From: Capitulum mitella
Lineage: Eukaryota; Arthropoda; Thecostraca; Pollicipedomorpha; Pollicipedidae
Reading direction: 5' to 3'
Assembly: GCA_030062745.1 (NCBI GenBank)
Contig: CP099846.1
Location: 21,382,621-21,446,620, forward strand
Length of the DNA stretch: 64,000 nt
The notes under the pieces are model-generated. The model did not search any database, was not told the origin of the DNA, and worked only from the letters and a program-made list of their open reading frames with translations. This document shows, piece after piece, positions 11,101-56,170 of the stretch. The position numbers and the translations under genes are program-made. The stretch's first letter is position 1. Each line of letters starts with the position of its first letter.

Positions 11101-14100
11101 AACAACTACCGTTAGGTGTGCCAACCTTTCTGCAGTTGCTCCCTGACTACACTGAATCGAAATGTTTTTCACGCGCTGAAAACTGTCGTAATTATGCCTG
11201 AAAACACCCTTCGATGTCAGCCCCTTCGGCGCGGTCGCGCGGCGGCGCCCGCTCGCCGGCGCACAGCCAAACTTTATTCTACAAACTACAAAGCTAGTTC
11301 AAGCATACCAAATCGTATAGAATTCCGCTGGTAATGAAACGAAGAATCTAATAGTGTACGGAATATAACGTCTCGTGCTACTCGTTCATCAATCAGGATC
11401 ACATAACATCAACGCTCATATGCGTTTATCGTTGCCGGTGGAATGCTTCAATCTATAAATCAAGGCGCGCAAACTCGAGCAGCAGTCATTACCGCCTTTT
11501 GTATGAGCAGTCAGCGTTCCACTGCTTGTCTAATCGTACCGAAATCATAGCAGCAATGAAAAAATGTGTTTTGCGGGCCTTAACATTCGGAGCAAGGTGC
11601 ACGAAGGTCATTTTCCAGGATGACCAGTTACGACCGCAATACTCTGCAAAAATTCGAACAATTTCAAAAGAAACCACGGGGTTTCTACGAACACGCGAGG
11701 GTGCCTCGGGTGACCAACAACGCGAGGGTTAACAACGACAGTGCACTGCAGTTATCTGACCCGCCCGCAAACAACGCGAGTCACCGCCATACGTGGCTGA
11801 AGGACGAACGACAACTTCACTGACCGCCTCCACTCCCAGCACGGTGCCGTGCAGGTTGCCGTATCTGAAGAGGCGCAGGCCGCCGGCGTTGGTGGAGACG
11901 TTGCCGCCGATCTGGCAGCTGCCCTTGGCGCCGAGGTCGATTGGCGCAATGTAGCCGCGCTCGCCCACGTACGCGTCCAGGGCCTCCAGCACGACCCCCG
12001 CCTCGCAGGTCAGAGCGCCTGAGGGCACGACACGCTGAGACCACAGATCATCCCATGCCAGCCTAGGTCAGAGCGCCTGAGGGCAGGACACGGACCGGCC
12101 TATCACAGGTCGGCCTTACAGGTCAGGGCGTATGACACGACACAGTCAGATTGGGCAGCGTGGACGGACACATCAGGTTCACTGGGAGAAGAGGACGGAA
12201 TGAGGCTGACCGGGACCCCGCGTGAAATCTTCGCGCATGAACTATTGATGTCTGGATACGCTTCCGCCGACACAAAATCGTCCCGAACGCACAGCTGATT
12301 GCTTCTCACAGGTGAACCTCGCCATGTGAGGGTCTCACGTGCGACCCTCACAACTGATAGCACCAACCGATATCCGTCTTCCCGCACCACGACCACCGCG
12401 TTCACACGCCCAGTCCTCGGCCAGCGAACGCCTCTGCTCACCCGAGAACTCGTCGAAGTGCAGGATCTGGTTCATCAACTGGGTGGAGACGATGACCTCG
12501 TCGAAGACGGGCACGCCGTTGCCGACGACGGCCGTGTTGCCGCCCTGCGGGCAGACGGCGAGCCGGCGTTCGTGGCAGTGCCGCAGGATGCTGGACACCT
12601 CCTCCGTGGAGCGCGGCTTCAGCATCACGCGGCTCTCTCCTGAGACGAAAGACGGAAGAACGGTCACGGTACGTGCTGACTGACAGAAAGCAGCGTTGGC
12701 GTGCTGTCGCGCGGCAGGGTTGCTTGTGCATCGTGCAGCCGCCTTGGGACGATGACGACCTGATGAGTGACAGATCGCTTGGGCGACGCTTCCGTTGACA
12801 GCTCGACGACGAGACGAGAGAATCGATGTCTCGAGATGTCCAGGCGAACCTTATCAACTGGGAAACGACCACACGTCCGGCCCAAGGAAGTCGCTTCGCC
12901 ATGATGACAACATGTACAGAACTAATGCTGACACGCGCGCATGGGGACAACTGTAAGGACGACGTGCCGTATCTTAACGTTCCCTATCCCTCCGTGTAAG
13001 TCCACATTATGTCACTCGCAGTCCATGGACTTATCACAGAGGATGAATAAGGAGCTGAAGGTCGCGCACATCACTGAGAATCAATTAAAGTTCCCGCATA
13101 ACTTTGACAGGACGAAATGCGGTTAAAGACTTCCGAACTCCCCTTCGTCAGACCACACGAACTTTGCCAAGACCCTAGTTTACAGCGGCGAAGACCTAAT
13201 TTCCAGCTCTGTCCTTCAATGAAGTGATCGTTTTTAATTGAGCACCACGACCTCGTAAATCTCGAGCACATAAAACGTCCACCGGACAACACCAGCCGGT
13301 TCAGCTTTCGCGGTCAGGCCTTCCGCCGGCCAGCGAGCGCAGTCAGACCCCGGCTCCGCTGTTCAATAACGCCAATAACGCATCACACGGCTCAATAACG
13401 CCAAACAACGCTCAAATTCAATTCCGGGCAGCGCCGGGCCCGGGGCCGGGCCATTTCTCGTGGCCGGACGAGACGGGCCGAGGCACGGCCGCCAGATGAC
13501 TGGCCGTCGGCCGCCCGTCAAGCCCCCGCGGGCCCTGTTAGACGCCGGCTCTTGCCTCCTCCCCGCCAAGGGCGCAGCCCACGCGCCAAACTTTCCGGCC
13601 AACTCGGACCCACTTGGCCGCAGCCTTTGAGCAGGCGGCGGCGCAGAGGCGGCCCCAGGGGCGGCGCCAGCGGGGCGGCGGGCGCAGGGGAGGCACCAGC
13701 AGGGACGGCGCCAGCAGGGGCGGCCGTTACCTGAGATGGGATCGTCTCCGGCTGGCGCAGAACGAACGCGAGCGGATGAGGCTGCCATAAATACCTGCCC
13801 AAACGTCATTCGGCGAGTTTCAAATGCTCGTTTTTTTAATGCACGCCACACACTGACGACGACTGGCAACGAGCACATGACCAAACTTTTCGCTGTATTC
13901 GGCCCATTAACTGCCTTGAGCGACAGAGGTGAACCACTGCAGCACTGCCATACTACTTTGGTCCAACGCCATGACTTGCAGCGCTCACAACGCAGGCCAT
14001 GCAAGAGGTAAACGAAAAGCCGTGCCTCTTTCATAGACAAATCGGACAGGCTTCAGCGAGGATCAACGGGCACACACGCTTCCTTTTACAGGTGTCCTGA

Positions 14101-21676: not shown

Positions 21677-24600
21677 CTACAGGGCGATGAACGTCTTGGT
21701 GCGGTACATGCGCCAGCCGACGAACACCCAGATCAGCGTGCCCCAGAGGCTGAGGAACAGCTGGCCCAGGTGCGTGTCGGGCGTGGGCGCCACCGCCTTC
21801 AGCGACACCGGGAACAGGTTGGTCCCCAGCTCGTGTCCCAGGTAGAGCGTGATCGAGTTCAGACCTGCCGGTCACCGAAGGCCACGGTTTGGTGGTTACT
21901 ACAACACCATGAGGACGATAATAGGTGGTAAAAAGAACTGCGGAACATCGTTAACGCCGCAATAAATGGCATATACGTGTCTTGAATGTGCGTTGCATAC
22001 GTACAGTTCGATGATACGAAATATATTTGCAATGTTTTATAAACCCTGATGATTGTTTAATGGCTTGTGTGCTGGTTTACACAGGATGACACCATCTTTA
22101 TTAAAAACAAATAATCAGTCCCTCCCATCGGTAAACAATTACTGGTTTTACAGCTTCTCGCGTTTGTCCCCTGCTACGTCTCTCACGCTCCCTACCACGA
22201 ATGTGACCGCTAAGTGAAGTCTACTACTGTACTTTTTCGGACTGTGGTCAGTTTTTTTTTCATGCACTCGTGCGCGAGTCATTCCGGACATTTTAACCCT
22301 ACGACCATCAACCGTGGCACGTTCCCTTCCTGTCCTCTGGCCGCCTGGCCGTCCCTGTTGGACGCGCCTGACGGAAACTGCCGGAGCCTACTGGAAGGTT
22401 CGGAGCGGCGCGCCCGCTCACCGGCGTAGTAGAAGGGCCGCCCCAGCCAGAAGCGCCACACGTCTACCACCAGGTACAGCAGCGTGAGCATGACGAACGC
22501 CATGCTGGACAGAGCCAGCACGAACGACAGCGACCACAGGTTCTTGTTCACCGGGATCACGCCGTCGTTCTTGGAGAAGCCGCACAGGCCGCCGGCGATC
22601 ACACCCTGCGGCGAGGTCAGCACCCCGAGGCGTTAGCCAGGCGGCGCGCAGGAAGCCACGAGATTCGGAGACGCGGCACGGAGTCGGCGGCCGTGGCATT
22701 CGGCTGACTGACGCAAAAGGCCACCTTCCAGTTAAGAACGAATGATAATATATCATGCGTGACTGGAGGCTGGTCAAATACCTGCTTTGCAGGAGAACAT
22801 TCCATTTGGATAGGCAGCCCCACAACTGCCATTTCCAAGCCAGGCCAGTTTCAGACTATTTCCACCATTTCCACCTCAGCAGCTCGTCTGTTTTTACGGG
22901 GAGAGGGGGGATGGCAGCCGGCAGGCGACCAGCTCACCAGGACCAGCGCCCAGACGCAGAAGCGCAGCAGCCGCTCCTTCCAGGTGCGGTAGGTGATGAT
23001 GATGCGGCCCGCCACGCAGCCAAAGAACACGGCCACGCACGAGGTCAGCACGCCGAGGATTCCTAGTAGCGGCGGAGGCCGTGTTAACGGTCAGGGCGTG
23101 GAGGCGCGGCGAGGACCGAGCGCACCACGGCCGCTGGCATTCCCCGGGCAGCGGCCATCGAACCCGGGCCGTGGCGCCACCAGCAGTCAAAGCAGAACAC
23201 TTCAAAAAAAAGGTGGAGGCAGCGGCGTTCAGCCCACCTCTACGATGCGTTAATCGGTCGACCACGTCGCCCGCACCATCTTCCTGCCGTTTCTTCCCTA
23301 GCGACATCTCAGAACTGCTACCAAATTGGCCAGGAGACCTGCCCCTATCACTTTCCTGAGTTGCTGGACACACGTGTTGCATACTCTGTCAGTACAACGA
23401 CCATCATCAAAACCTTATTTAGTCGGAATTGAAATCATAGTTGATCAGGCTAGGCGCCAGCCGCTCACCTTCCGGGTCGTACGGCAGATGGGTGTTGTAG
23501 ATGACGTGGCAGGTCGGGTGATGGTATATCAGGACGCCCAGTACCTGCCTATCGATGTAGCCGGCAGCACCGCCCGTGCAGTTGGCGTACTGCCCTCCGT
23601 GCTCCATACCGCCGGCCCCCAGGTAGCCCCTGGGAAACGCGCACAGGTGTCCAGATAACACCACACCAAAATACTACCCTTCCGTTGTCCCCCACTGCGC
23701 CTTTCCGACATGCATTTCAAGTGTTCTCAGAGAACAAAGACGAAGAAGTGACCACGAGTCTGAATGCGGTGCAATCTTATCAATGCTGAGTTTGTCCGGG
23801 AGCGCTGACGACGTACAGTGGCCTCGCAACGTCGGCTGCTACCATGTTAGCCAAACTCGCCAAGTGCGCCACTGACCACAGCGGTGACGCCTGCACCAGG
23901 ACAGCTGACAGCGTGTCCCGCGGCGCCTCACCTGGGACAGCCAGGCACCTCCAGCAAGAAGGTGATGAACGTGTGCACAGCGGCCAGCACGGCCACGCAC
24001 AGCCACTGCGGCCAGCAGTCGACGACGTCCCGCAGCCAGGGCACGAGCCGGGGCTGCAGAGACAGGGGACGGTCACGGTCGAACGCGGCGCCAGTCCGCC
24101 AGCAGCTGGCGCTGGATTCACCCCATTGAACCGATTGGTTGGTTCGCTGTCTGATGGACTTGATTCGCCGAGCTGCGGATCGTTTCTGGTTCTGATTGAC
24201 AATGGGTTTTAAAAAGTGAACTGATTCAGCTTTGATTCGATGGTGATTAAACGAGCTGGCGATTCCATTCTGATCCTGATTCACTGCGGTTTTCAAATGA
24301 ATCGGTCCTGATTCTGATTCATGGTGAAACTGCGAAACAACCGAATCAATTCAAATCGATCCAGAATCAGGCGCAAGCCCATCCGCCAGCTCGGACGTCA
24401 ACGGAACGACAATAGTGACAAGGGCGAGCGGACGACGTCACCCACCCAGAAACAGAACGCCGTACGGCGCCCAGAAGTAAACACACCTAAATGCCACCTC
24501 TGCGGAACGGCCAGCTTCCAGCGCGCCCCAGCCAACACTGTAAACATTCCGACACACCCTCCCCTGTCCACACGCCACCACACCACCCACGTGCGTCATG

Positions 24601-27600
24601 TGACTCCGGGAACGGCACAGCGCCGCGCACGGGACCTCAGGCCTCCAGCCAGGAGCCGGCCGCGCGCGGCGCGGGGCCGCCGCGCGACGTCACGCACCCC
24701 CGGCGGCTCGTCGGCGCGCAGCACCGGCAGCTGGATGCTGGCCAGGATGAGCCCGCACAGCGAGAAGCGCTGCAGCACGCCGGGAATGCGCAGCTTGTTG
24801 CCGTCCCAGCGCGCCTCGCTCGAGTCCGAGTTGAGCACCAGGCCGAAGAGGAAGAGCAGGCAGCAGCGGCGCAGCATGCGCACCCAGATCTGCGACCTGC
24901 GGCGGCCGGGCGCGGCTCAGAGCGGGGTGACGGGGTCGGGGTGTCGCGCGCCGGACGCTGGCTCGCAGGGTGCCGACAACCTCGTGCGGCGAGTGGGCGT
25001 TCCGATCAGGGTCGGGGAGGAGAACACACCGACGGAGACGGAGATCACGGGAACCGGCGGGAGAACAATGCCAGACAATACAAATACACGTGAAGGAACG
25101 GACGTCCAGACAGCGTTGCGGCGACAAAAATGGAACGGTGATGGGCTACTAACGGACATTACAGCGTACGAGCATGTCACGTAGGTCTATCACGACGCCA
25201 GCTTGGTTCACAACCAGCATGTGCATAACATAAGCCACACCAACTGACGTGACCATCGTTATCTGACGCTGACCGTGCACTGTGAAAAAGTCGCCCAATA
25301 CCCAGGCCGGCTGAAAGGGGGCACCTGGTGAATGAAGCCGCGCAGGAGACTTACTTTGGCACAGACCGGCGAATCTGGCCTCTGAGCGACATCACCATGC
25401 TGGCTCCCATGATCCACATGAACCTGGTAACACAGCGTGGTCGAGTCAGCGGTGGACGACACAGACGAACACCGAGGTCACTTTCCGTAGTGAAGCACAA
25501 GATGTAGGTGCAATGAATTACGAAGTATCTCTAAACGGTTTTGGGCTCGAAAAATGTACAAGCAACATTTTCTGTGCGTTGGGAGTAATTCGCACTTCCT
25601 AAAAAAACATTATATGATATGCTAGAGGAAATACAAAACAAAACATAAATATGCTATATTGGTGCAAAGTCCAAGCATATGAGAAAAGACAATGGCATCC
25701 TAACAAATAGCCAACAATATGCAACAACCGACTGGACAACACTACAGCTAAGACCGCGTCACACAGACAGGTACCAAGCAAAGCAACGTCATATGATAAT
25801 GGCGGGGACATGGAATGAACCACCTCGAAAAAGTAATCCATCACTTCTGAGGCAACATACATGCTAACCCAGGGCGTGTCCATCGATAAACGCACTTAGC
25901 TGAGGCCTTACAGTTCCAGATACATCGAAGAAATGCGGCAAACCTTACATAACTAGTTTAAATGGACATCCCAAGCATCTGCCGCGTTACTGGCAGGCTA
26001 TCCCAACGGCCTACAGCAATCTGGCGAGCTCTAGATCCGTCACTACGGTCACCCAGAATTAACCAAGAGGTATGTTCACCCGCAAAACACTAGATCGATT
26101 CCAGGCCGGCGAAAGCATAGACGTGCATCGGCACTCTAGGCCCGACACAGTCACCAATCCCTAATTCTGTTAAAACGACGGGCACTCACCAGGGGAACAC
26201 CAGATCGGCCACAGTCAGTCCGTTCCAGCGCGCGTGTCGGAAAAACCAATAGTGGCCGCCCTTGTAGTTGACAAAGATCATCACCACGATACAGATGCTG
26301 CCGACACACATCGGACAAGAACAAACGGCGTCAGCACGGCATCACACGACATGAAAGCACGGTAACAGAAACGAGCGCTGGCCTGCCGGCGACACCGCAA
26401 ACAAGGCTGCACCCACGTAAGCCCCGTCACAAGGTCCGGCACAGACTGGTCGGAAGACAGCGACGACGAAGAAGCGGACATCAGCCAATCAGATCGGCAA
26501 AGATGGGACAAGTTCATGTGAAGCCAAGAGCTGGGGGTCCCAGGCAGGAAGCTGTGCAATTCTGTGACTGGGTCCTTTGATAAAAATCGGCGCGTGGCTT
26601 TTTCTCCCTTCAGTTTCTCGAAATACACGTGACGCGTGTCAAGTGCGGTCGGCTGTGTTACTAACCGTGGCTTTGCACAATGCAAGTTCAGCCTCATTTT
26701 TAAAGGGAGCTTAACGCTTTGTACGTGACGACGCAGTGTGCTTCAACTCTTGCAACGTCAATGTCAAACGTCAAATGTGAGCACTATCATGTGTATAAGT
26801 GCTACTACCACGGGTACCTGACTCAAACTTTGGGTGTTTAATGTAAAAACTCAGTGGAGTTTCGCACTGAACAGCAATTATTCGCCCTTTGGTTCACTAG
26901 TGACGAAATTTGCCGACGAAGCAAAGTCCAGCTTGATAGTCTTAACCACTGCGATAAGACCAGCACTAAGCAGGACAACAGCTTCGCTGGGGCAAGCCTG
27001 ATCAAGTGACTGGCTTCCGACGAATCCGCTCTCCAACTCCCCAATGCTATCAGCCCTGAGTGACAAACGGGTTCGCAAACAACAGATACGCCAATCGCGG
27101 ACAGCAGCAGTCGGGAACAAAGCTCACCGCCCACAGCCCCGGAGGACAAACCAACCGGAGACAATGTTATCAAGCCCAGGACGACATAGCCAGCCCCAGC
27201 CCCGTCCGGACGTCACGTGGCCCGCCACGGGGCATCACGTAGCATCGCGGGGAAACGCCACGTGACCCACCAGGGGAACACCAGGTCGGCCACGGTCAGG
27301 CCGTTCCAGATGGAGTGGCTGAAGAACGAATACTGCCCACCGCCGTAGTTGACAAAGATCATCACAATGATGGAGAAGCTGTTGCGGGATTTTGACGGCG
27401 TCAGACCGGCGGCCACATCACATGCATCAGTCACACGCAGCGTCACGGCGCGAAACGAATTCTGCTGACCTTTGGCCGTTTCCGACACATCAAGAAGTGT
27501 CCACACGACTATGAATCACTAGGCCATCTCAGAAGAAGTGCGCACTGCGCAGACCCAACCACAAATGTTGGCACTGTGCCAATGAAATGTGCAAACAATA

Positions 27601-29913
27601 CGCAGAGCATGTAATTAAAAAAGCCGCAGCCAAATAAATGACAGTTCAACTTAAGTTCACGACGGCAATCGCTTACATCGTAAAGACAATGCCGGAAAAT
27701 TGCGTGGACGTGCTGCCTTCGGGTCGATGCATATGATACAACTCACCCTCTGAACACGTCCAAGGAGTGAATCCGGGTCTTGAGCTTCTCGGCGGCCGGG
27801 GAGCTGCCCACCTCCTCGGGCATCATCGTGGTCGACTGCTCCGGGTCACCCAGATCCTGTCGACATCCAGGGAGACCTTGTAACCCTTGGCCGGTGCCAA
27901 GGCATATCCCAAACAGAAACTCGGACCGCTCGTTACTGGCTGCTGGTCAAAAGCTGTTGTTGAAAGGCCTGGCTCTTTCGAGCCGGGGAAGTGTGACCGT
28001 CGGTCAGTCGTGTCTGACAGGTGGAGTACAGCATGGAGGATTGATTTTCCAGCGGTTGCGGCAGAGTTAGCGTGAACTTCTCATGAACGTGAGAAATTCA
28101 CGTTTCAGGGTTTCAAAAAGCCTCGTAACTGGCCGCCCTGCCGATACGAGTGGCAACAATAAAGTCGTCACGGACGTCAAACCTCTCACCGGTCGCCTCT
28201 GAAGGCGGTCAAGTATGCACCATCGGGTCAGTCCTAAAGCCTTTTGAAGCCAAAACGATCCGCACCCTTCCGGCTGCAGCCGCGAAAAAGCTTACCCTCT
28301 CTCTCCCCCCGCCCTACCCCCGTTTGGTTCGTCCATACGCACCCGACGAAGCAGGGACGACGCTCCCACAAATCGGATCATCCGGTGGAAGAGCGAATGC
28401 TCGTGCATCTTGTTGATGATCTTGATCAGCAGCGTCAGGCCGACCAGCGTGAGAAAGGCGAACAGCAGGGCTGCAACGCAGGACGCGTTGACACAGTCTT
28501 TCGACACTAAGAAGCGATAAAGTTGGATCAGGGCGGATACTTTCGTACGCAAAGAAATGCAACAAAAACCATACACCAGACGATGAAAGCGCCTACGCGG
28601 CTGCAAATGTAAACGCTGTTCCGAACGGCAAAAAAATGAAAAAAAAAGTAAAACGGTACGATAAAACGGTACAAACCTGGCTGGAGACTTTAAAACGGGA
28701 CGCAATACGCTTACAGCATGCATGCTTTTGCGACTGCGTCCCGACCCGCGCATCGTAACACCCACAAATCACTGACTTTACCGAAAACTGGTTTAGAAGC
28801 CGAGTCCACGGAGACTCAGCAAATCAGCAGCAGACAGCCTCAGAGACAACGTGCGGTTTTCGCGTCGGACCGTAAGAACCCTGATCACAGCCACAACAGA
28901 GGCCTGTGCCTCGGCTGGGCGTTCGCCGACGGTCTGCCGGTCCACTGACGGGCGTATATGTTGGCCGGCTCTCTCAGCACGTCCATCGAGCAGACGATGG
29001 GCGTCTCCTGGTGCGTCGACAGCCGGTACCAACCGTATTCGCCGAAGTGGTAGCGCAGCCTGCCGGCACCGGCGGCGCCCTCAGTTGCCCACACATGGGC
29101 CAGCGTCGGCCTAGTAAGCCTGAGAGCTGGCGGCGCTCGCGTCTGATGATCGTGAATTGACAGCTAACCGGCCATACGCTGGTCCAGCGACGGAAACGTG
29201 AAACTGTCGCACAAGCTCCTTCACTGAATGAAGTTTTCTACCGTTCCACAAAACAGCGCACCAGCGCCTTGACTGAATCAATTTCAGAACCACCCCACAC
29301 GCGGCATGAATGCCAGTGTAAATCCGCATCGGATCAGCTTCACAGCCGTCAGTCTCCAGACATTTTTCTGTGACACTCAAATACAATACTGCTTCGACGC
29401 GGCAGATGATGATGACAGCGACCACGTCAAATCAGCGGTTTCGGGTACCCACAGCTTGCCGTTATGCTTACCTACAGAGCGACGAGCCAGCACTTGATTG
29501 GAGATACAAATCTGTCGGATATGTCGTGTTGACCACTTCGTAACGAACTTCAGAAGGGGGCACCGTCACCTTCGGCCAGGCGTCACACTGAAATGCGAGC
29601 CCACCAGGGTATTCCAGCCGTACGTCAGCGGAAAGACCGAAACAACTTGGAGTATGAGCACACGAAATTATTATACAATACAAAAATTACCCAAACGTCG
29701 AGCAAGCGGCACCAGCTCCCGCCTTAACGCGGTCACAACTGCGGCACATTCCATCGCCGTTCCAGCAGCCCAGCGCCAGTTTTGCGTGCGAGACCGCCGC
29801 ACCAGCAACAGCCGCTCCCCGGCCCGAGACGCTCACCTTCAGGCACTCTTCGGCCTGCGTCCACAGGGTGACGGGGTACGCCAGGCTGTTGTTGAGCGTC
29901 AGGCACGCCTCGT
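21677..29913 (-). CDS. HGSNAT: Heparan-alpha-glucosaminide N-acetyltransferase (5' exon missing)
   Basis: Lysosomal multi-pass membrane enzyme that acetylates the terminal glucosamine of heparan sulfate using cytosolic acetyl-CoA. Coding segments: 29913-29837, 29587-29472, 29059-28950, 28470-28343, 27856-27747, one of 27378-27271 or 26297-26190, 25423-25355, 24896-24698, 24053-23932, 23629-23469, 23062-22938, 22605-22422, 21864-21677 (TAG stop). All junctions keep phase and give about 564 residues. Family landmarks: [13 protein letters not shown] in the luminal domain, [75 protein letters not shown] and [12 protein letters not shown]. Roughly ten membrane helices are implied. The 3' border of exon 28470-28343 is ambiguous (28370 also keeps phase). 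The signal-peptide exon should lie between 29,914 and about 32,000. Confidence 0.95.
24110..24370. repeat. GATTC-rich degenerate repeat in an HGSNAT intron
   Basis: The words GATTC or GAATC occur about a dozen times in 260 bases, on an irregular spacing, in the intron 24,054-24,697. It looks like a decayed simple repeat. Function unknown. Confidence 0.5.
26190..26297 (-). CDS. HGSNAT: HGSNAT catalytic-histidine exon, copy B (tandem duplicate)
   Basis: Also exactly 108 bases, with acceptor TCGGCAG, donor GTGAGT and the same entry and exit phases as copy A, 973 bases further downstream in the gene. It reads [20 protein letters not shown] and then [11 protein letters not shown]. It keeps the histidine but changes about ten residues, mostly around it. 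Either copy can join the neighbouring exons in frame; including both would repeat a membrane segment. This suggests mutually exclusive splicing. Confidence 0.9.
27271..27378 (-). CDS. HGSNAT: HGSNAT catalytic-histidine exon, copy A
   Basis: 108 bases with acceptor CAACAG and donor GTGGGT. It reads [20 protein letters not shown] and then [11 protein letters not shown]. It enters by completing a Gly codon (GG|C) and leaves after TG of a Trp codon that the next exon completes. The His in FFSHSIWNG aligns with the histidine reported as the human active site (numbered 269 in the shorter form, recalled from the literature). This copy keeps the common YGGG variant. Confidence 0.93.
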
Positions 29914-31705
29914 CTAGGCGCAGGGTTCCGCGGCGGCCGCGCCGCGCAGAAGAAGGACCGCTCCATCCGCATGCCCAGCACGGTGGGCGGCTCGACGGGA
30001 AAGGCCGGAGGGGGTCGGCGCCGGGCCGGCCATGACGGGGCACTGGTCAGGCCCGGGAGACGACCGCCAGCCGCGCTGGACGCGTCCGCTGCCCGGGACA
30101 CCGGTCGGTCCGTCCGCCGCGTCACAGGTCAGGCCTGGTGACGGGGGTACAGGGTGACGGACCGAGCAGCGTCACAGGTCAGTACTGACCACGGGGACCG
30201 GGTCACGGACTGAGCAGCGCCACAGCTCAGGCCTGGTGACGGGGACCGGGTGACGGACCGAGCAGCGCCACAGCTCAGGCCTGGCGACGGGGACGGGGTC
30301 ACGGACTGAGCAGCGTCACAGCTCAGTCCTGGGGACGGGGACCGGATGACGGACCGGGCAGCGTCACCAGGTCGGTGCTGATCACGGGGACCGAGTCACA
30401 GAATGAGCATCGTCATAGGCCAGTCCAATCGGCGGAAAGCGGGCCATGGACCTACCCGGGTAAACATCAACCGCGCACTAGTCGTAGCTGTGGTGCGCGC
30501 TGAGCCTCGGGCAATCCTAACCAATAACAGTAGTTTTGCTATGTCTCAGACTCGCCTGATGATGGCGACGGCGCAGCGTGCGAGTGAGGTCAGCACTCAG
30601 CGGTGTGCCCGCTTCCCGGCGGCGACGCAAATTGCTGGGAGAACAGCACAGATCGGTCCTTGAGCAGCCTCAGATCGCAGTATCATGTCTGACCTTTGCA
30701 GTCACCCTCTTATCTTATCTAGCTGCTGATAGCTGGTGTGGAGATGGGGTCCCAGCCTTGCTGTCTAGGATGGCACAAGGAAGGCAGATTGGCAGCTATC
30801 ACATCACGCCCACCCCCCAACGAGCATGGAGTCAGCTAAATTAAGTCAGTTTCTCTTGGCCCTTCAGGATGTCAGACAGATAACAATACCAAAGAATGTA
30901 GAGTGGGAAGACCACTTGACTTCTGCAAAGTGCAATACAAGAAAGACTAAACAACAGAAAGAGAAATCAGTAGTGCAGTATGATATCTGGTTGGTCCATA
31001 TCAAATTTTCCTTATCAAATGACATTCGAGATCACATTCATGCATAAAGCATTGTTTCCCCCACATAACAGCTACAGAATTCTGAAGAAGATTTAAAAAA
31101 TGGCATTCAGTGCAGGGTCTTAAATGTCATAGATGTCCCAAATAAGGAACAACTTCCTATAAAAACACAATAACATGTGTCATGTACAGATAACATCATA
31201 TCATGGTTCAATAATGCCAATGGTGATTGGTAATTATTGTGGCATCATGTTTAGAGGGAATGGCTGTACATATGGTGCATGTGACACAAACTGCAGCCAG
31301 CTAGGAACAAGAGTCCACTTCAGTGTTGCATTAATTGAGACTAATGAAACAGCCACAAGGAAGCAACATGCAATAATAATAATCATGGTCATGGGTACCT
31401 TGGACCACAAAGTTTGCATTTTTAGTGTCCCCAAGTTCTTCAGTAACACATTGCAGGTATTTCTGGTTGGGAAGGCTGCAGAAACATATACCTCATTTTT
31501 TTTTTAATTTGGTAAAAATTGCAGTTGTATTACAAAGAAATTCTTTAGCAGAATGTAGTGTAGTTCAGTGTAGTCCCATGCTGCAAGGATGTCCCTTACT
31601 TTGAAAGTTCAAGGTGGACAGTCCTGGCAGTCCTCAACACAAAAAGCATGTGATGCCAGTATAAGAGTTCTGCTTTTCTTAAAAAAAAGAACAGTGACTG
31701 GGGAA
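29914..31705 (-). other. Probable first intron region of HGSNAT
   Basis: The missing 5' exon must end in phase 1, but I could not pick it. The stretch holds the 48-bp minisatellite at 30,120-30,420. From about 30,660 to 31,690 it has only about four CpG in 1 kb, like the first intron of D2HGDH. Confidence 0.5.
30120..30420. repeat. 48-bp minisatellite, about six copies
   Basis: Units run from CGTCACAG or CGCCACAG through GACGGGGACCGGGT to GGACCGAGCAG, with moderate divergence between copies. It lies upstream of the first recognised HGSNAT exon, probably in intron 1. Confidence 0.9.
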
Positions 31706-35126: not shown

Positions 35127-38100
35127 AGCGTATGGCGCCGCCGGACGCGGAGGGCCGGGCGGCGCCGGGCGGCGCCCGGTCGGCCCACCACGAGGACCCG
35201 CGCTTCATCCGCGACATGTTCCTGGCCAACCGCGACCAGCTGGCGCTGCTCAAGCAGAACAACCCGCGCCTCGCCGACGCCCTGCTCAGCGGCGACCTCG
35301 GTCAGTGGGAGAGTCGAGGGAAGGCTAATGGTGACTCTGGTGTTGTGGTGTCAGTGGGAGAGCCGGGGAAGGCTGATGTATGGGATGACTCTGATGTCAG
35401 TGGGAGAGCTGGGGAAAGCTGATGGTGACTCTGATGTCAGTGGGAGGGCTGGGGAAGGCTGATGGTGACCGTGGTATCATTGGGATAGGCGGCGGCTGAC
35501 AGTGGCCGTGAGTGGTGACTGCAGGATTTTATCACCTGCTAATGCACGGCCACGTATGTCCAGATTGGCCCATTGGCTTCTGTAGCAAGCTGTGCCTGGG
35601 CGGACCATCGCCCGACCTTTGAAGTAAGCCGTGCTAGGAAGAGCTAGGAAGTTCAGTCATGATAGCGGAATGGCGTCCGTGCCGTCGGTGTCCGACTGCC
35701 CGCTGGCCGCAGAGCGGTTCGCCTCCGTGCTGGGCGAGCAGCAGCGGGCGAGGGCCGAGCGGGAGCGCATGCGGATGCGGATCATGAACGCCGACCCGTT
35801 CGACGCCGAGACGCAGCGCCTGATCGCCGAGGAGATCAAGCAGAAGAACATCGACGCCAACATGGAGGCGGCGCTGGAGCACAACCCGGAGAGCTTCGGC
35901 TCGGTCGTCATGCTCTACATCAACTGCAGCGTCAACGGCCACCCGGTCAAGGCCTTCATTGATTCCGGTGAGCCTGCGGTAGGCGGGATGTAGTGTCTTG
36001 TCTGTTGTGGCTACTTGTGATTTATTTCGTTTCTTGAAGTGACCGTTCCACGGCGCGTATTGCACCCTTTCGTCATGTCCTCGAGGTTTCCAGACGACTG
36101 CCAGACCTGCCGTTCGTTGGTCGGCTCATCGTCCAGTTTTGTAGTCACTGATGCCTTTGCGCCGTTCATCACTGTCCGTTGTCTGCACGCCAGGCGCCCA
36201 GACGACCATCATGTCTGCCGCCTGCGCCGAACGCTGCCACATCATGCGACTGGTCGACACCCGTTGGAGCGGCATCGCCAAAGGCATCGGCACCCAGCGC
36301 ATCCTGGGGCGCGTGCACATGGGCCAGATCCAGATCGAGGACGTGTTCCTCACCTCGTCCTTCTCGATCCTGGAGGACCAACCCATGGACATGCTACTCG
36401 GCCTGGACATGCTGAAGCGACACCAGGTAAGCCAGGCTGGATGGACTTGCCTCATCCGTTCCCGGCAGGAGGGGGCTGAATCCGCCCACCTCGGGCTTTT
36501 TGCTTGCAAGTTCCAGGGTTTTTGACGCAGTTTCACGAAACTTGGTCGCTTTTCGTACCTGTCCTTTGTACGTACTATAGCAAAACCTCAATTCTATTTT
36601 GCTCAGGTAACCAGGCAACGTTTCTGAGAGGCACCTCAGGCCATTTTTGGTTCCTCTTGAAGGTAAGGAGAAAGTGGCTGCCAAAAATAGCGTTTGTAAG
36701 ATAGAATTTAAAACTTTAAAAGTTGTATAAGTTAGAAAGTGGGAAAACATACAAACCTAATTTTGTTCATCTAAGGTCCCTTCACAAGGTCAGTTCAGGT
36801 CATGTCAGGGTCAAAAGTCAAAATGGTTTTATAGTAAATTTTGGCACTGTTTTCCGAAATGCAGAACCTGGAATATAGTTGACGGAGAAGAGTCCCCTCT
36901 ACTTGTGTACCGAGTTTCAAGTTGATATCAGGTCGGGTCACGGGGCTATGACCTAAAACTAAGTGCGCGTACCCGATATCAAGACAGCCGTAAAATGGGA
37001 TTTTAGAAACAGAGTCAGTTCAAATGGTTGGAAACGTATCAGACAATGTGAAATGCACTCAAGACCATTCCATGTGACTAAGGTCGTTGGAGGTGATTCA
37101 AGTAAATCGCAAGTCTTAAGTATCGTAAGTCGACCTGATGAGCATGTGACCATGACAGTTCCTTCTTTCTCATGTCCCTTGCACCTCTTGTGCTAACATA
37201 CAAACACTGTAGTACGATCTGTACTGCGTCAGCATAACATGACTAGCAAAAGATAAAAAAGTGCCCTTAACCTGTTTGCTGATTCAGTTTTTGAAAGCTA
37301 ATCCTCCCATTTTTGAACCTTGTGAACACCTATGAATTTTCTCAAAATCTCAAACATATGGAACAATGGTAAAATTCCCTTCCATAAACTGTTGATTCAT
37401 GGTAGTTTCATCAAAATCGGTCTGTAAACAGCACAACTATAACAAGTTCAAAAATATCCTTCAGTTTGACTTTTGTCCCGCCCTCGTATCCGCCCCTTTC
37501 AAGATTTGCAAAACGTCTTCTTAAAAGTGTAGTTTACGTCATGGAAAATCGATTGCTGTTTGTTGCGATGAAATCGGATGTGTTGTGCTCGAGATCTCAG
37601 GCGGGGCCGAATCCGCCGCCCCCCGTGCTGGGAATCGGCTATACCATCTGGCCCTCCAGGAAAATGGTTAAGTAGACTGTCAAAATGATGTGTTATTAGC
37701 GTCGGCACGTAGTTTTTCTGCCCTCAACTTTCAATGCAGTAACAAGGAAATCGACTCAATAGTCGTAGCTTCAGGCCAATTAACCTTGCACAAGTCCATT
37801 AAAGTGATAATATCGCTTCTTGATTTGTTGGAGCATGCGGAGTTCGTAGAAATCGCAGGCCGTAAATGCACTTTGAAAGATACGGTTTGCAGTGGACGTT
37901 CCATGATATCAATGGATGTCCGAATATCACATTCCATGTTCGGTCCGTGCACAAACGTTTTTTTTTTTATTCTCCTCGTAAATACTGGAAATAGCCTTTA
38001 CGTGGAAAACGACTCAGAAAAGAAAAGGAATACATCCTCTGTCTCTGCCCTCCTGTGACCAACGTGTCCGGGCCCACAGTGCCTGATCGACCTGAAGAAC

Positions 38101-39790: not shown

Positions 39791-42700
39791 TGTCCTTCTA
39801 TTAAACGACATAGTCTGATCCGTTATACGTGGTACGAGCATGCTGAAGTTAAGCAAGGGACTAAATCTACAGGTGGCGTCGAATGAAGTCTGTTGCTCTA
39901 GGCGTTATTTTATGTTTCATTTTAGGGCCTAGGTGGGTTTCGTCGAAATGTGGAATGAACCCACTTAGCTCCATGGCTTCTGGCGGATGCCGCCTTCACT
40001 GCGAAAGTTCAGAGCGCGCAGCAAGTAACCAAACTCAAACGTTACTGCACGTTATGAGCGTTACCATTACGAGCCAACGGTAAAATGGACTGCGTGGAAT
40101 AGCTTGTCTTTATTTACACCACTTCTTCACTGAAGTGTTGGCGGCACACATTTCCTGTGTGCCGCACTACAAGTTGCAACGGAATGCGATCGTTATCTTA
40201 CAAAATTAAGCCTTTATGTTCGGGAACTAAGCACACAATGGCAACGGAAATCCAATAATTCGGAACTCGAGAGTTTTCGACAACTCGGTGCAGGAGCCCA
40301 AACATTTCACCGGCCACCTCTGTGATGACTGGCAGTTCAGATGCCTGACTGCCAGGGTTTGCAAACCCCACGTCGACGCTCAAAACAGCGTCACGGGCGG
40401 CTCCATCCACAGAGAACGCTACCCGAGCCGGCGATCACCGCGATCAGCCCGCTCACGGCCAGCCATGCGGCCATTGTCGCGCGCTGCTCCAGCTGCCGGG
40501 CTCTCACCAAACAAATCCGCCCGCCGGCGGTCAATAAATCACCGCAGCAACGCCTCGTCTGCCACTGACAACACACCGTCGCCGAGCCCACCTAATGGGC
40601 CGTAATAGGTGCAGCGGTGGATCCCCGTCTCGCGTCGCGCGGGCCGCCGCCGCCGCGCCGGCTGCCCGGCACGCGAGCGCGGGCGGCGACGTGTGTGTTG
40701 CTGGTCGCCGGGACGCGCCGCCGGCCCGGTAATGGGCTGGCGTGACCGGCCACCGCGCCGACGGGGCCGCGTGGCACCATCAATTCGGCCGGCAATCGCA
40801 GGGAAAAACGGCCCGCATTAGCCGATCGAACGGCGCCGCCGGCCGGCCGACGGCGCGACGCAGGTGGTGTCTGCTGCGGGGCTGAGGCGGGCACCTACAG
40901 AGCTGAGGCGGGCACCCTCAGAGCTGAGGCGGACATATACAGAGCTGAGGCGGGCACCTACAGAGCTGAGGCGGACACCTCCAAAGCTGAGGCGGACACC
41001 GTCAGAGTTGAGGCGGACATGTACAGAGCTGAGGCGGGCACCTACAGAGCTGAAGCGGACACCTACAGAGCTGAGGCGGACACCTACAGAGCTGAGGCTG
41101 ACACGTACAGAGCTGAGGCGGACACGTACAGAGCTGAGGCGGACACTTACAGAGCTGAAGCGGACACCTACAGAGCTGAAGCGGACACCTACAGAGCTGA
41201 GGCGGACACCTACAGAGCTGAGGCGGGTACCTACAGAGCTGAGGGGGATACCCTCAGAGCTGAGGCGGGCACCTCCAGAGCTGAGGCGGACACGTGCAGA
41301 GCTGAGGCGGACACGTACAAAGCTGAGGCGGACACCTACAGAGCCGAGGCGGACAACAGGGCAAGAGCTAAGACGCGCACATATAGACGTGAGGTTGGCA
41401 CTTGGGGAGCTATACGTGGCCCCTAAAGAGCTGGGGTGGGTTGTGGGGTGGAGCTGGAGCTGGAGCGGAGTCCTTGAATTGCGGTCGGCACCTGGAACTG
41501 GAGACCCCAGGTGTTGCAGAGAACACAAGGAGAAAGGAGAGTACCTGGAGCTTTGGCTGGTGCCTGGAACCTGGACCAGCTTCATGAGTCGGCGTTTCGG
41601 TTTTCGTAGTGCTGCAGTGGTAATGACAGTTTCGCGATCCACGGACTGGAATCCCGGAACACGAATGCATAGGAATCTGTATAGCTCTCGGAGTACCCTT
41701 TTGGGACATGGACTAGACCATGGCTAGTCCTGGTTAACCAGCTAAGGCATTCGAAAGGGAACGTGGATTTTCGGTAGGCTTGCTGTAATCTAGGACACTC
41801 ATTCAGTAGTGCGACGGACCGCAACCTTTGTCTCTCCGTGCCTGGTGAGCGCAAGTCATTAGCACTTGCAACAATGGATTCAGCCGCGGAGTGCAAATGC
41901 AAGGACAGTCAATGGCGCCAAGGGCGGACCTCCAGGCTCGGCTTTCAGCGTGTGGACAGACCGGCAACAGGCCAGGCGTCCTGGCTTCCTCCAAATGGCC
42001 GCCGTCGGCGAACTTTTGTTGATCTTCAGACATCGCGGAATGCATTAGTACTTGTTTGCACGCTTGGCTGGTAACGTATGTACGCAGAACTCGGTCTGGT
42101 TTCACAAGCAGACCTCGACTGGTCGCCAGTCTGACTGCAGTGTTGTTTGCGAGTCCTGCCGTCGCCTAGTGCACAGAATTGTGACCGTGCCACAACGGTA
42201 GGGTTTTCCCGGTGTAAAACTAGCCCGTGATTTACGATTCAAAAGAAACTGCAGAGAGGCGTTTGCCAAGGCGGTGCAAGAGACGATTGCCGTTATTATC
42301 GATATTATCGGTTATTACTGGTCGTTATAGTTGCCGTCGTTGCCATTACGTGATGTCCACTATTCACTCGTGTTCAGTTGACAGATCGTTGGTCTTCTCA
42401 CCTTGGCAAGACGGGTTCGAGTCACCTCGGCGTTCGATATTTGGTCCACGGATCACCTGGCAACTGGCCGACGCAGGGTGGCGCTGACTACCACACGGCC
42501 GTGTTGCACCCTTGGCGACACGTTAAACTTTCGCCACAAAATCAGCCGTTACCTGGAATTTTGCTGGTGATGATGCGTGATCGGGTGTAGTGATCGGGGT
42601 CCATGCTACAAGCTCTGCTTAGCACGACGGGCTACTGATCGCTAACATCATGTTATCAAACCACTCGGATGAAAAGTAAAAATGAAGAATTTAGGTTCAG

Positions 42701-50862: not shown

Positions 50863-53800
50863 CTATTCGCCACCCGCGTCGCCTTCGTCGTTGCCGCCGT
50901 CGCCGCCTCCATCGTTGCCGCCGTCACCGCCCCCGTCGTCGCCGCCGACGACACCGCCGACGGTGTCAGCCGCACTGTCGGCGGCGCCTCTGGCAGCGTC
51001 GGCCGCGCTGTCGGCGGCGTTTTTCGCCGCGTCGGCCGCGCTCTCGGCGGCGTCTCTCGCCGCGTCGGCCGCGTTGACCATGGCGTCGTTCGCCGCCGCC
51101 GTGACGTTGCCGGCGGCGTTCGTGACGTTATCCTTGACGCCGTTGGCGGCCGAAGTAAGGCCGTTAGTGACGCCGTTGGCGGCGTCGGTGAGGCCGCCAG
51201 CGGCGTTGCCGGCGGCGCTGGAGGCGTTCTCTCTGAGCCGCTCGATGTTCGGCAGCTGGCCCATCAGACCGCCGCCGCCCCCGCCGATTGCCGGAAGACC
51301 GCCCGTGAATGGATTCCTTCCCGCTGCATCTGCGGAAGGGGAGGGATAACGTCACACGTATCCCCGGAAGCGCTGTGCAAAACTCGCCTGTCGGGGGACA
51401 ATGTCCGCGTATCCGTCCGGGAAGAATCTCAGAATCGTGCTGCGAGTCTTCGGTCACTCGCACGGGGGCGGGATCTGCCGGCGTTTCCACGAACCGGGGA
51501 AAGGGTATTGATCAGAGCAAACAATGTGTCGCGTGAGCCAGCGATCCAGAGTCTGCAGCACGGTCACGGAGGTACTAAACTACCAGAAAACATGCCAGCA
51601 TTTTTATGTGTTGAATACCAGGCAGAGATCAAACACGACGATTTGTTAATGTCCCCACTCCCACTTCCTGACACTAAAGACTCCTGTCGCGGAACAGTCC
51701 ACAGCAAAACAAGGAAATAACGATTGTATCTACTGTGGCATCCAATCTTCTGTTATCTGTTTCAATAAATGCTAGCGACCATAAAACATCAATACGATAC
51801 GTTTTCGCATTAAACAGGCACGGGCTAAGCCTTACACTTTATGATAACGAGTTCGTCGGATAAATTCGGGGCTGTCAAACATGATGACACAGAAGATAGT
51901 TTTAGCACCGTTCGATATACTCAATGACGGTGCAATCTGCGTTCGCTAATGAATGCCCCGGATATGGCACAACGCACAGTTCTTCGTTATTAACCTTCGC
52001 CGGGACGGCCTCCCGATCCGCTTTTGCTGGGCCAGGAGTTCATGAGGCCCCTCTCACCTCCCCCAAGACCTTAAGAACTAAAAGTCCAAAAGATAAAGAA
52101 AAAAAACACCATTGGAAAGCCTTTGATGAAACTAGAAGAAAGCACCTACATTTTTCAAATTAGGTTAATGCTGAGGTCACCATGCATCATCTCAGGTCAA
52201 AGTACCCTGCTCGCATTTTTGTTTGCAGAAAACTTTGAAAGCGAAGGTTTTCACCGAGGCTCCAAAGAGGTTTAGCGGTGAAAAGAAGGCCTGATTCACC
52301 AATGTGGGGCGAAAAGGATACTTGAGGTCAAATTTGGCCATTTCAAGGAAAACAAACAATAAGTGTAAAAAGCCGTCTTTTTTAGAACAGGAGTCTAGCA
52401 CTTTCTGAATGCGTCAGTACATGCTTTGGCCGTAATACGCCGTAAATGTGCCTGGCACGCACATGCAGTCTGTAACTGTCATATTAAAGGCAAACGATGT
52501 CAACGAACGTCAAGGTACTGACGTTTATACGTCGGGCTTTTCTGGCGTCTGCCGTATCAACTGACACATTAGCACTCGTCGGAAAGAGTACAGCATATCG
52601 TTATATAATATCGGATGGTGTAATGTCCCTTCTGCATCAAGAAACTCGTGTCCCGAAGCATTTTATACGTAAGTAACTCAGATACTGGACGCGGGGGGGG
52701 GGGGCACGGCTGAAATATATACGCTTAAGACTTGGCGGGAAATTATTTTTATAGTGTCGAGGGTTTTTATTTCGGCAACCAAACATTACACGTTGGAGGA
52801 GAACAAACTTTATAGAAGGAAGGCATGGGCGTGGTTCTCATCATTTCTGGCGATACAAAATGTGTGCGCATTGAAAACAAACATAATATCCCAAAAGGAT
52901 CAAATCGGGTCAGCCTGGATCAAATAGCATTGGTTCATTCTTGGCAAGTAAGTTCTTATCATATATTAGTGCTTCCGAAGAACACAAAGCAGTAAACATT
53001 CCAAGACTGTAAACCAAGGAACTGAGCTCGGTTGAGGGTCTCAAACTACGGTATGAAACTTGACGTGATCCCAGGTCACGGGCCAAAGGGCACAATTAGG
53101 TGTAAAAATGACGTAGGCGGCACCCGTGTGCACATGAAAATCTCAAAACTTCCAAAACTGTCCCAAAAAACAAAAGCAAACGTGAACATGCCCAAAGTTC
53201 AGTTAATCTAAGGTCAATGACCGGAAATTTCCGAAAACTTCGAGTCAGTAAAATTGTTGTACTTGCCAGGTTCTGTCGACATGTGAGTTTTCAGGGCCAT
53301 CGATATATTTTACGAAATATTATGTCAGTCCATCTCTTGGAACATGGTCTTACTTGACCTGTCCTAAGTCAATGACCTGGGGTGACCCTGAGTTTTTGAT
53401 GCGATGTGTAAATGCGGTGCGTAAAGATGGACCTTAAGTTTTGTATTTTCGCGCCTTATCATTTTTTGTATATCCTCGGAAAAGCGGATGAAGGTTCTTA
53501 TTATTCCCCCCCCCCACCCGGCAAAGGTTAACAAGCCATACCGCTTGAATCCCTCATATGACTGAAATAATGAGCCGTTTTATTTAATCGCCGGGGAATC
53601 TAGGACGATCATCGTCGTAAATTGGCTCGCTCCTATCTGTGCAAACTTTTTCAGTTATTTGGCTTGCCTTGATGGGTCGGTCACTATCCTGACATCGTCG
53701 ATACTGCACCACAAAGCCAAGAGAAACATGAACTAATACACGGCCTCCCATCTTCTTGATTCGGCGAACAAGGTGGCCTGGTTGTAGGTAAAGTTGTTCT

Positions 53801-56170
53801 GTGCCCTGTCCGTCGGAGCTCCACCCTGGCGCGACGGTCAGGCCGATGACTACAGGCCGCTGGGTCTGGAGGCCGATGATAGGAGGCCGCTGGGTCTGGA
53901 GGCCGATGACAGGAGGCCGCTGGGTCTGGAGGCCGATGACAGGAGGCCGTGGGGTCTGGAGGCCGATGACAGGAGGCCGCTGGGTCTGGAGGCCGATGAC
54001 AGGAGGCCGCTGGGTCTGGAGGCCGATGACAGGAGGCCGTGGGGTCTGGAGGCCGATGACAGGAGGCCGCGGGTCTGGAGGCCGATGACAGGAGGCCGCT
54101 GGGTCTGGAGGCCGAGGACAGGAGGCCGCTGGGTCTGGAGGCCGAGGACAGGAGGCCGCCGGGTCTGGAGGCCGATGACAGGAGGCCACGGGGTATGAAG
54201 GTTGATGACAGGAGCCATCGGCCATAACAACGACGTCGTGAGCTCATGCCAAATCAGGAGCAAGGGAAGTAAGCGCTGCAGAAGGTCTCGGCTGCTGTCA
54301 ACTGGCATAGGAATCCGCCATCAGCACCGAGCCAACTGAAGAATTCTACTGCCGGAGACTGCCGACCGAGACTGCACAATAAGTCCACTTGACGGGCCGG
54401 CTAACCGGGCCTCTGAAGAGACTTGTTGTTGTTGTTGTTGCTGTTGGTGGAGTTCGCTGCTGGAGTTCATTGGGAACTCTGCTGAGGAGACCTGCCCAAG
54501 AAGTCTTCTGCGGAGGTCAGCTCGTCTGGCTGGTTTCGTGAAGCGCTCCGATTTTTAGAGACCCTAACAGGGATTCTGCCAGCACGTCGTGCGCGCATTC
54601 CCTTCCCTGGGTCCGGAACATTTAACGCTAACGGTTGGTCATACCGCATGTGGTTGTCGGCGGTCATGTACGCCGCTCATCAACCGGCACCTTATCCTGG
54701 ATTTTTCAGAATCATGCTTTTGCCAGCGTCGTTAACAACCTCAGCCTTCACAAGATCGTTGTCTAAATTACTCTCTCTTTTAGCTTATCGCATGGTCCCT
54801 TTAGTTCTAATACATTTTAGGCAGGATGTCCTATTTGTAAAATCATGGCAGTGTCTGTGTAGAGCTATTTATTCCGCTGTACTAATTATCGTGCGAGCCC
54901 TTTGTCACAAAGATTGGTAACGTGCAGCTTCTGGAGGTCTTCAACGCGCACTGACAAACTGATTATTTCGTCATGTCCTGTCTGTGCTGTTGTTTCATTG
55001 TGTTTCGCACCTCCGCTTGGTCTCAATTTCTCTTGCGTGGTGGCACAATTGTCTTACAACACAAAGAACAATATTCCCTTTGAGAAACAGCCCATATCTG
55101 AGAGGAATACGCCATATAGTGTTTCAGCTAACGCCTGATGGGCAGCTAGTTTGCTATAGGGTGGAAGGCAGTCCCAAGTATCGCTGCCAATCGATAAATG
55201 TTTTCATCATTCGCTGTTATTTTTAAGGCCGAAGGCAATGTGCAAGGTCAGCAGAATCGCGACAAGATCGACCCTAAACACGGGGTCAGGCAGTAAATAT
55301 CCAATCCACACGAGGAAGTCCACTCTGCAAGACTTTGAATGTCCAACATCGACCGTAAACACTTTGGCGTGTTCACAGTGATCGTGACCCTGGGGCGAGT
55401 TAGACATCTGGCGCGATCAAAACACGCACGCTCCTCGCAAACACTGCCAACGATGTCAGAAACAACGGCCCGGCCCACCGTCACGGCCCCTCTTCCCTGT
55501 ACTCGAGCTCTGCTCGGTCTCAAAGCCTGACACGCTGCTGGTCCAGCGGCTCTGCGTCCACCCACCTGCGGCAGCCTGTCGAGACCATGGCCTGACCTGC
55601 CCCGGCGACGGCCGGGCTCCCCCCCTCGCCTCGTGCATCCTGTCCTGACCGTGTGAGAACCCCGACCGAGCTCGGTGGAGCTTGCATTGGTAAGGAAACA
55701 GATTTTTAGTTGATACTCGCATTCAGCATTGCAGGTCCAGCGCACCAGGTTCGCAAAAATGGGCCGGGGTGGGGCATGACACGTCCGCGTTCTCAAGCCC
55801 TGCGCCGTCCGCGACTCATCGGTGTAGCCATGGAGGAGGCGGCCAGGGTCACTGTGGCCTCCTATGAGGCCTGAAAAGTTAAGGTTTTTACGCGCCAAAA
55901 ATGAAAGCAGATAACAGTTTCCGAAAACCGCAAATAAAGCGGCCAGAAATCGGAAACATTTCCCGCTTCGAAGAGGATTAGGTCCGCCCTGGCCCCCTCC
56001 TTGGCGAATCCCGGCTGCGCTCGCGCCGTGACCTGACCTTCTGCGGCGGCGGCCGGGTCGGCGCCCTCGCCGCCGTCGGCCGAGTCCTCGGGCCGCTTGT
56101 TGGCCGGCGAGTTGGCGTCCGGGCCCGGCGAGACCACCTCGCCGCCGACACTGCTGGCGCAGACGCCCAT
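50863..56170 (-). CDS. Proposed N-acylated, alanine-rich 11-mer-repeat protein (two exons, 199 residues)
   Basis: Exon 1, 56170-56038, starts MGVCASSVGGEV. The MGxCxS start is the classic signal for N-myristoylation at Gly 2 and palmitoylation at Cys 4. It ends GAAG|GTCAGG in phase 1. The second exon, 51329-50863, follows a strong acceptor (CCCTCCCCTTCCGCAG) and needs phase 1. Joined, they read an acidic Pro/Ala/Asp start (1-45), a Gly-rich turn (50-66), an alanine-rich region with 11-residue repeats (about 80-167, clearest at 131-163 as AADAARDAAES, AADAAKNAADS, AADAARGAADS), and a Gly/Asp tail (168-199). Both exons are GC-rich islands in AT-rich surroundings. I do not recognise a family. 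The layout resembles MARCKS or BASP1, and the repeats resemble LEA group 3 or perilipin/synuclein helices, by analogy only. Unseen exons between the two are possible. Confidence 0.5.
51330..56037 (-). other. Proposed intron of the 11-mer-repeat gene
   Basis: About 4.7 kb, largely AT-rich, with poly-G or poly-C runs near 52,690 and 53,507, the 30-bp minisatellite, and a (GTT)n run at about 54,423. No family-level coding match was seen on either strand. Confidence 0.4.
53839..54205. repeat. 30-bp minisatellite, about 12 copies
   Basis: Unit AGGAGGCCGCTGGGTCTGGA followed by GGCCGATGAC. Copies are nearly identical, with one 29-base unit near 54,069 that shifts the open frame. The long minus-strand frames over it (Pro-rich, RPPVIGLQTQ) are repeat artefacts. 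Confidence 0.93.

Follow-up and report, generated by a model that had tools for sequence, protein, structure and literature searches.

The HGSNAT gene and its two copies of exon 6

The window analysed here, a stretch of 64,000 nucleotides from contig CP099846.1 of the barnacle Capitulum mitella, holds on its minus strand (from ~29945 to 21677) an HGSNAT gene of 13 exons. Loss of HGSNAT leads to Sanfilippo syndrome type C (mucopolysaccharidosis IIIC). The product that is spliced with exon 6 in its version B has 575 residues, of which residues 4-572 align to residues 73-660 of human HGSNAT (E 9.6e-127), and it scores 23.6 bits against PF07786 (cut-off 22). A PF07786 profile search of the genome returned no match, even at the HGSNAT gene, because the search works exon by exon. 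By whole-length alignment (E about 1e-126), the barnacle gene encodes the same enzyme as human HGSNAT (8vkj, 8jkv, 8tu9). Human HGSNAT also comes in two forms, which PMC11357348 attributes to two start codons, not to exon 6 as we propose for the barnacle.

Elsewhere in the window lie a DDI2-like protease gene with Ddi2_HDD and Asp_protease domains (35628-36525, plus strand), a trypsin-like serine protease domain in a single long open frame of 343 residues (62073-63104, minus strand) and, downstream of HGSNAT, a FAD_binding_4 exon (11729-12067, minus strand) that presumably belongs to D-2-hydroxyglutarate dehydrogenase. Three segments (273-1799, 40746-41727 and 53584-54320) look repetitive by eye and are open in several frames, and the window is without a match in Rfam. 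The HGSNAT features are as follows:

Exon 1, 29837..29945, minus strand: 3' end fixed at 29837; 5' end arbitrary, start codon not found
Exon 2, 29472..29587, minus strand
Exon 3, 28950..29059, minus strand: weak donor CCC/GTCAGT
Exon 4, 28343..28470, minus strand: TM1 by human alignment
Exon 5, 27747..27856, minus strand: ends ...LDVFRG, phase 1
Exon 6A, 27271..27378, minus strand: neutral-loop version of the active-site exon; last W common to exon 7
Intron separating 6A and 6B, 26298..27270, minus strand: 973 bases
Exon 6B, 26190..26297, minus strand: basic-loop version; residues as in Pollicipes isoform X1; last W common to exon 7
Exon 7, 25355..25423, minus strand: next exon, common to both versions
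Exon 8, 24698..24896, minus strand
Exon 9, 23932..24053, minus strand
Exon 10, 23469..23629, minus strand
Exon 11, 22938..23062, minus strand
Exon 12, 22422..22605, minus strand
Exon 13, 21677..21864, minus strand: holds the stop codon; one version found in the window

An earlier note on this DNA had proposed that HGSNAT carries two versions of its active-site exon, and both are indeed present, at 27378-27271 (6A, or A) and 26297-26190 (6B, or B). As claimed there, they are equal in length and phase, each having 108 bases, phase 1 at both ends, AG/GT borders and a reading frame that joins those of exons 5 and 7; both are free of stop codons and both keep the catalytic histidine (H297, human numbering). 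The copies do differ beside this histidine, the number of changed residues, put at "about ten", being by exact count 9 of the 35 complete codons (26/35 residues identical), and 22/105 coding bases differ. NG86 estimates of dN and dS are 0.166 and 0.612, a dN/dS of ~0.27 (codon bootstrap 0.08 to 0.68), and GC3 is 0.89 in 6A, 0.77 in 6B and 0.88 in the whole gene. Together the two exons form a direct repeat of 117 nt with 80% identity, the sole direct repeat family of at least 20 nt reported in 25000-29000; the likeness stops at the splice sites, and the flanking introns are unlike. Upstream of both acceptors we found a 14/16-base match around CTGACGCCGT (E 0.40), which may be a branch point or chance.

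Describing the splice sites as good was fair for B and generous for A, whose donor and pyrimidine tract are weaker. Scored with a donor matrix, the donor of A (CTG/GTGGGT) reaches 3.5 bits and that of B 6.1 bits, and the 22 bases 5' of the acceptor are 50% pyrimidine and 14% T in A as compared to 59% and 41% in B. Since scores of the remaining 11 donors of HGSNAT span -2.5 to 7.1 and a further three acceptors have at most 50% pyrimidine, the splice sites of 6A nonetheless lie within the gene's own range.

Searching the window by tblastn with both exon peptides revealed no third copy of exon 6 (next matches at E of at least 0.4), nor was a second copy of any other HGSNAT exon found in the window. 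In the genome (477,042,490 bases in 16 contigs; counts are lower bounds) the DNA of exon A matches only A and B, and a protein search (E up to 10) hit the HGSNAT gene, one distant HGSNAT-like gene on contig 14 and, with an E of 3.1 that suggests chance, contig 7. The contig 14 gene (G000:C14:14505001-14513000) has a single exon 6 that is very different from 6A and 6B. A genome duplication has been reported for barnacles (PMC11331182), and the contig 14 gene might stem from it. Import of an exon 6 copy from a paralogue was set aside after the genome search, the contig 14 paralogue being far more distant.

The active-site loop and the constraint on both copies

Exon 6 corresponds to human residues 277 to 312. 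In PMC11199644, H297 and D307 are described as the catalytic dyad, N286 as holding the acetyl carbonyl, M282 and F310 (in TM2 and TM3) as gating the acetyl-CoA pore and the luminal cavity of HGSNAT as negatively charged, while PMC11357348 places the catalytic histidine in luminal loop 1, which also contacts the luminal domain. M282, N286, H297, D307 and F310 are all present in both barnacle copies. We compared these with a family set in which 208 relatives were listed, 205 of them with a readable exon 6 stretch, leaving 181 distinct relatives after removal of P0001 (Pollicipes); in these 181, residues 282, 286, 297 and 307 are invariant and 310 is kept in 179.

The differences between A and B fall at human positions 277, 278, 280, 288, 291, 293, 296, 298 and 299, and residues 287-300 (histidines left out) carry a net charge of 0 in copy A as against +3 in copy B. 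A loop charge of +3 is reached by 10 of the 181 relatives and a charge of 0 is found in 48. Judged by charge, A thus looks like the ordinary version and B like an unusually basic one; judged by residue 293 it is A that appears unusual (S in 5/181 relatives). Across the family, K/R at 288 is associated with K/R at 299 (9/12 vs 40/170, Fisher P 0.0005, with barnacle B and related species counted), and shows no association with K/R at 291 (P 0.51) or 296 (P 0.37). Human missense changes are reported within exon 6, namely I280R, G290R and N301K (PMC11199644), of which G290R and N301K appear as G262R and N273K in PMC11357348.

That two intact copies point to selection on both, as had been argued from their open frames, is supported by neutral simulations and by the fit of A to the family. 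The 181 distinct relatives, scored leave-one-out, have a median PSSM fit of 116.4, with A at 114.2 and B at 119.9; 38% of the family score below A and 70% below B. Neutral decay of B by 22 changes produced a mean of 14 replacements and a stop in 53% of cases, and 0/10000 simulated copies matched the fit of A; the outcome was similar when decay was simulated from A instead or with a different transition rate. When the same number of base changes was simulated neutrally in three sets of 10000 runs, the frame stayed open with at most 9 replacements in 0.15 to 0.24% of runs, and no simulated copy came up to the family fit of the other copy. Compared with 204 relatives, A is on average identical at 26.6/35 residues and B at 26.2/35, 96 of these relatives being closer to A, 68 closer to B and 40 equally close to both, and the mean identity of A was equalled by 0/5000 simulated copies with 22 changes, 0/5000 with 11 and 1/5000 with 6. 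Moreover, the residue of A at each of the nine differing positions also occurs in at least 5/181 relatives. Copy A is not decaying. A reading of A as a pseudoexon was set aside, its open frame, its family fit and the neutral simulations all speaking against it. Since exon 6B is identical to that of Pollicipes isoform X1 (36/36 residues), the nine differences of A are many for so conserved an exon, and A is either old or altered by selection.

Exon 6 in other barnacles and in molluscs

Among other barnacle proteins, Pollicipes isoform X1 (P0001) uses version B, and a partial protein of Amphibalanus (P0003) is B-like at 293, 296 and 298 and has G at 288, as in A. A barnacle protein with version A is absent among those listed in the database searches, where clustering at 90% identity could hide one behind P0001. 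P0001 represents a cluster of 3 sequences, and its label as isoform X1 suggests that further Pollicipes HGSNAT isoforms are annotated. The 380 residues of P0003 (Amphibalanus amphitrite) begin with a methionine that lies within exon 6, the kind of protein that a gene model broken at a doubled exon would give.

Comparing all pairs among the 208 longer relatives, in search of flanks that agree well around an exon that agrees poorly, yielded 70 close pairs. In the abalones, P0035 of Haliotis cracherodii and P0038 of H. rufescens (isoform X3) agree at 346/350 flanking residues and at 23/35 in exon 6; over residues 22-500 the mismatches are the scattered positions 179, 180, 226 and 377 together with 12 places inside 245-274. 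The P0035 version is also carried by P0059 of H. rubra (isoform X1), which compared to P0038 has 319/350 identical residues in the flanks and 23/35 in the exon. Scallops provide a weaker case, P0098 and P0102 agreeing at 297/332 in the flanks and 28/35 in the exon, and P0098 and P0058 at 294/350 and 28/35, a gap of a mere 4 points. Babylonia P0027 and P0032 were rejected as an isoform pair, as they differ throughout (66%) and were read as separate genes. The last exon, with its GHE motif, also differs in P0038 and P0102, and abalone and scallop isoforms appear to exchange exon 6 and the last exon.

As in the barnacle, then, exon 6 is more divergent than its flanks in abalone P0035/P0038 (flanks 99%) and scallop P0098/P0102 (89%), the catalytic residues are kept in both versions and one of the loops is basic, the other being acidic in the molluscs and neutral in the barnacle. 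In contrast to the barnacle, these cases belong to another phylum and are known from proteins alone, and their last exon varies too; an alternative last exon like that of abalone was not found in the barnacle window. That two exon 6 versions sit within one mollusc genome we infer from proteins of different species. The loop charges of the two versions are 0/+3 in barnacle, -2/+2 in abalone and -1/+2 in scallop, a post hoc comparison of three cases, and 11.6% of 20000 random draws of family pairs differed by at least 3 in loop charge.

In an exon tree (LG+G4; 45 rows, 35 columns) A groups with sea urchin (support 99/90), B falls into a weakly supported group with molluscs that have K/R at 288, and the GGGG...HSDWNGI versions of abalone and scallop form one group (support 97/91). 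A clade of A, B and Pollicipes is not rejected (p-AU 0.13, or 0.115 with Amphibalanus added), nor is the grouping of A with mollusc type I (p-AU 0.19) or of B with mollusc type II (0.34). The tree thus fits more than one age of the pair. Silent sites are identical in 18/24 shared codons, where 14.9 would be expected at saturation under the gene's codon use (P 0.12); given the strong codon bias they are not clearly short of saturation, and great age of the pair is therefore compatible with the data. We consider it doubtful, if conceivable, that protostomes have had mutually exclusive versions of exon 6 since ancient times, the basic-loop and the neutral/acidic-loop version both predating the split of arthropods and molluscs. 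The basic version would then be the one with K/R at 288 and often R/K at 299, and the two versions would surface piecemeal because databases give one isoform per species. If this were true, animals would tune the lysosomal breakdown of heparan sulfate via a charge swap at the catalytic mouth.

Proposed splicing of the pair and its implications

Our favoured explanation is that 6A and 6B are alternative exons, most probably a mutually exclusive pair that gives two forms of the enzyme. Each mature HGSNAT mRNA would take either 6A or 6B between exons 5 and 7, thereby encoding one of two full enzymes; both exons would be spliced, one at a time. Both forms would keep the dyad H297-D307 as well as N286, M282 and F310 and differ in the charge of the first luminal loop (0 versus +3), and we infer that charge at the catalytic mouth is the property that changes between them. 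This loop lies next to the catalytic histidine, at the mouth that binds heparan sulfate, so the two forms would be expected to bind the polyanionic acceptor with different affinity or pH dependence, or to touch the luminal domain differently. The choice would probably be regulated at the weaker exon A, whose donor and pyrimidine tract are as expected for a regulated partner or for a seldom used exon.

The mutually exclusive reading gains support from the abalone proteins, whose differences are nearly confined to exon 6 and the last exon, and, more weakly, from the scallops. Among the 208 longer relatives, which include no barnacle A-B transcript, the exon 6 motif occurs once in 207, is absent in 1 and occurs twice in none, which fits one exon copy per protein in general. 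According to PMC3228551, exclusive clusters of arthropods such as those of Dscam and muscle myosin heavy chain consist, by the WebScipio criteria, of adjacent internal homologous exons with equal length, phase and splice-site type that encode the same protein part; 6A and 6B share every one of these features. Unlike in Dscam and muscle myosin heavy chain, the barnacle exon holds the catalytic dyad of a lysosomal membrane acetyltransferase, and the pair is known here from genomic sequence alone.

Short spacing, a frame shift and incompatible spliceosomes are the usual mechanisms of exclusivity and not a defining requirement. None of them operates here, as 108 is divisible by 3, the intron between the copies has 973 bases and all sites are GT-AG. 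Exclusivity, if real, thus needs splicing factors or RNA pairing, because frame, spacing and spliceosome type cannot enforce it. Competing RNA pairing between introns is a further common mechanism, likewise not essential to the definition. For neighbouring intron pairs the duplex energy of the whole introns is no better than that of shuffled sequence, of which 38 and 41 out of 60 were as low, while for intron 5 (27746-27379) with intron 7 (26189-25424) 1/60 shuffles was as low, in the sequence of one species; no clear docking structure emerges from these whole-intron duplex energies.

An alternative that we regard as unlikely is that transcripts use exon B alone, A being a relic that is spliced very rarely or not at all. 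The B version in Pollicipes isoform X1, the B-like residues 293, 296 and 298 of the partial Amphibalanus protein, the absence of an A-type protein among the database proteins listed and the weaker donor and pyrimidine tract of A all lean this way, but if A had decayed from B through 22 base changes, it would carry on average 14 replacements, would stand a 53% chance of a stop and would have lost the family fit (0/5000), and A has kept the five catalytic and gating residues, a gene-like GC3 and intact AG/GT borders. Less probable still, in our view, is that each copy is a cassette, exclusivity being loose and isoforms containing both, one or none, with the double or skipped forms inactive or regulatory. 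Every combination would be in frame, since 108 is divisible by three, and nothing steric or in the type of spliceosome stands in its way; yet the exon encodes the loop that joins TM2 and TM3 together with the luminal ends of both helices, such that its repeat or loss should break the catalytic core (as deduced from PMC11199644 and PMC11357348), and none of the 208 longer relatives has the motif twice. An assembly artefact, in which two haplotypes or a paralogue were misplaced in tandem, is highly improbable. Locally duplicated sequence is a usual sign of false duplication, but here the exon alone is alike (80%) and the introns are not, whereas a haplotype would match throughout, and the contig 14 gene, the sole further HGSNAT-like gene found, is much too distant.

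Returning to the mutually exclusive pair, full-text literature searches, judged by titles and the starts of abstracts and covering few subscription papers, turned up no prior report of such exons in HGSNAT, in agreement with the earlier note. Duplicated mutually exclusive exons are well known in arthropods, as stated in PMC3228551. The barnacle pair likely adds to this known kind of exon; its site, the catalytic centre of an enzyme, is unusual, and it has a likely parallel in another phylum. Should both exons be in use, a single lysosomal enzyme would have two interchangeable catalytic centres, a natural experiment around the HGSNAT histidine, and the tolerated variants would help to read human missense changes in exon 6. 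The likeness to abalone and scallop leads to a testable general claim, that isoform choice at exon 6 is ancient or has arisen repeatedly, and that what varies there is the charge beside the histidine.
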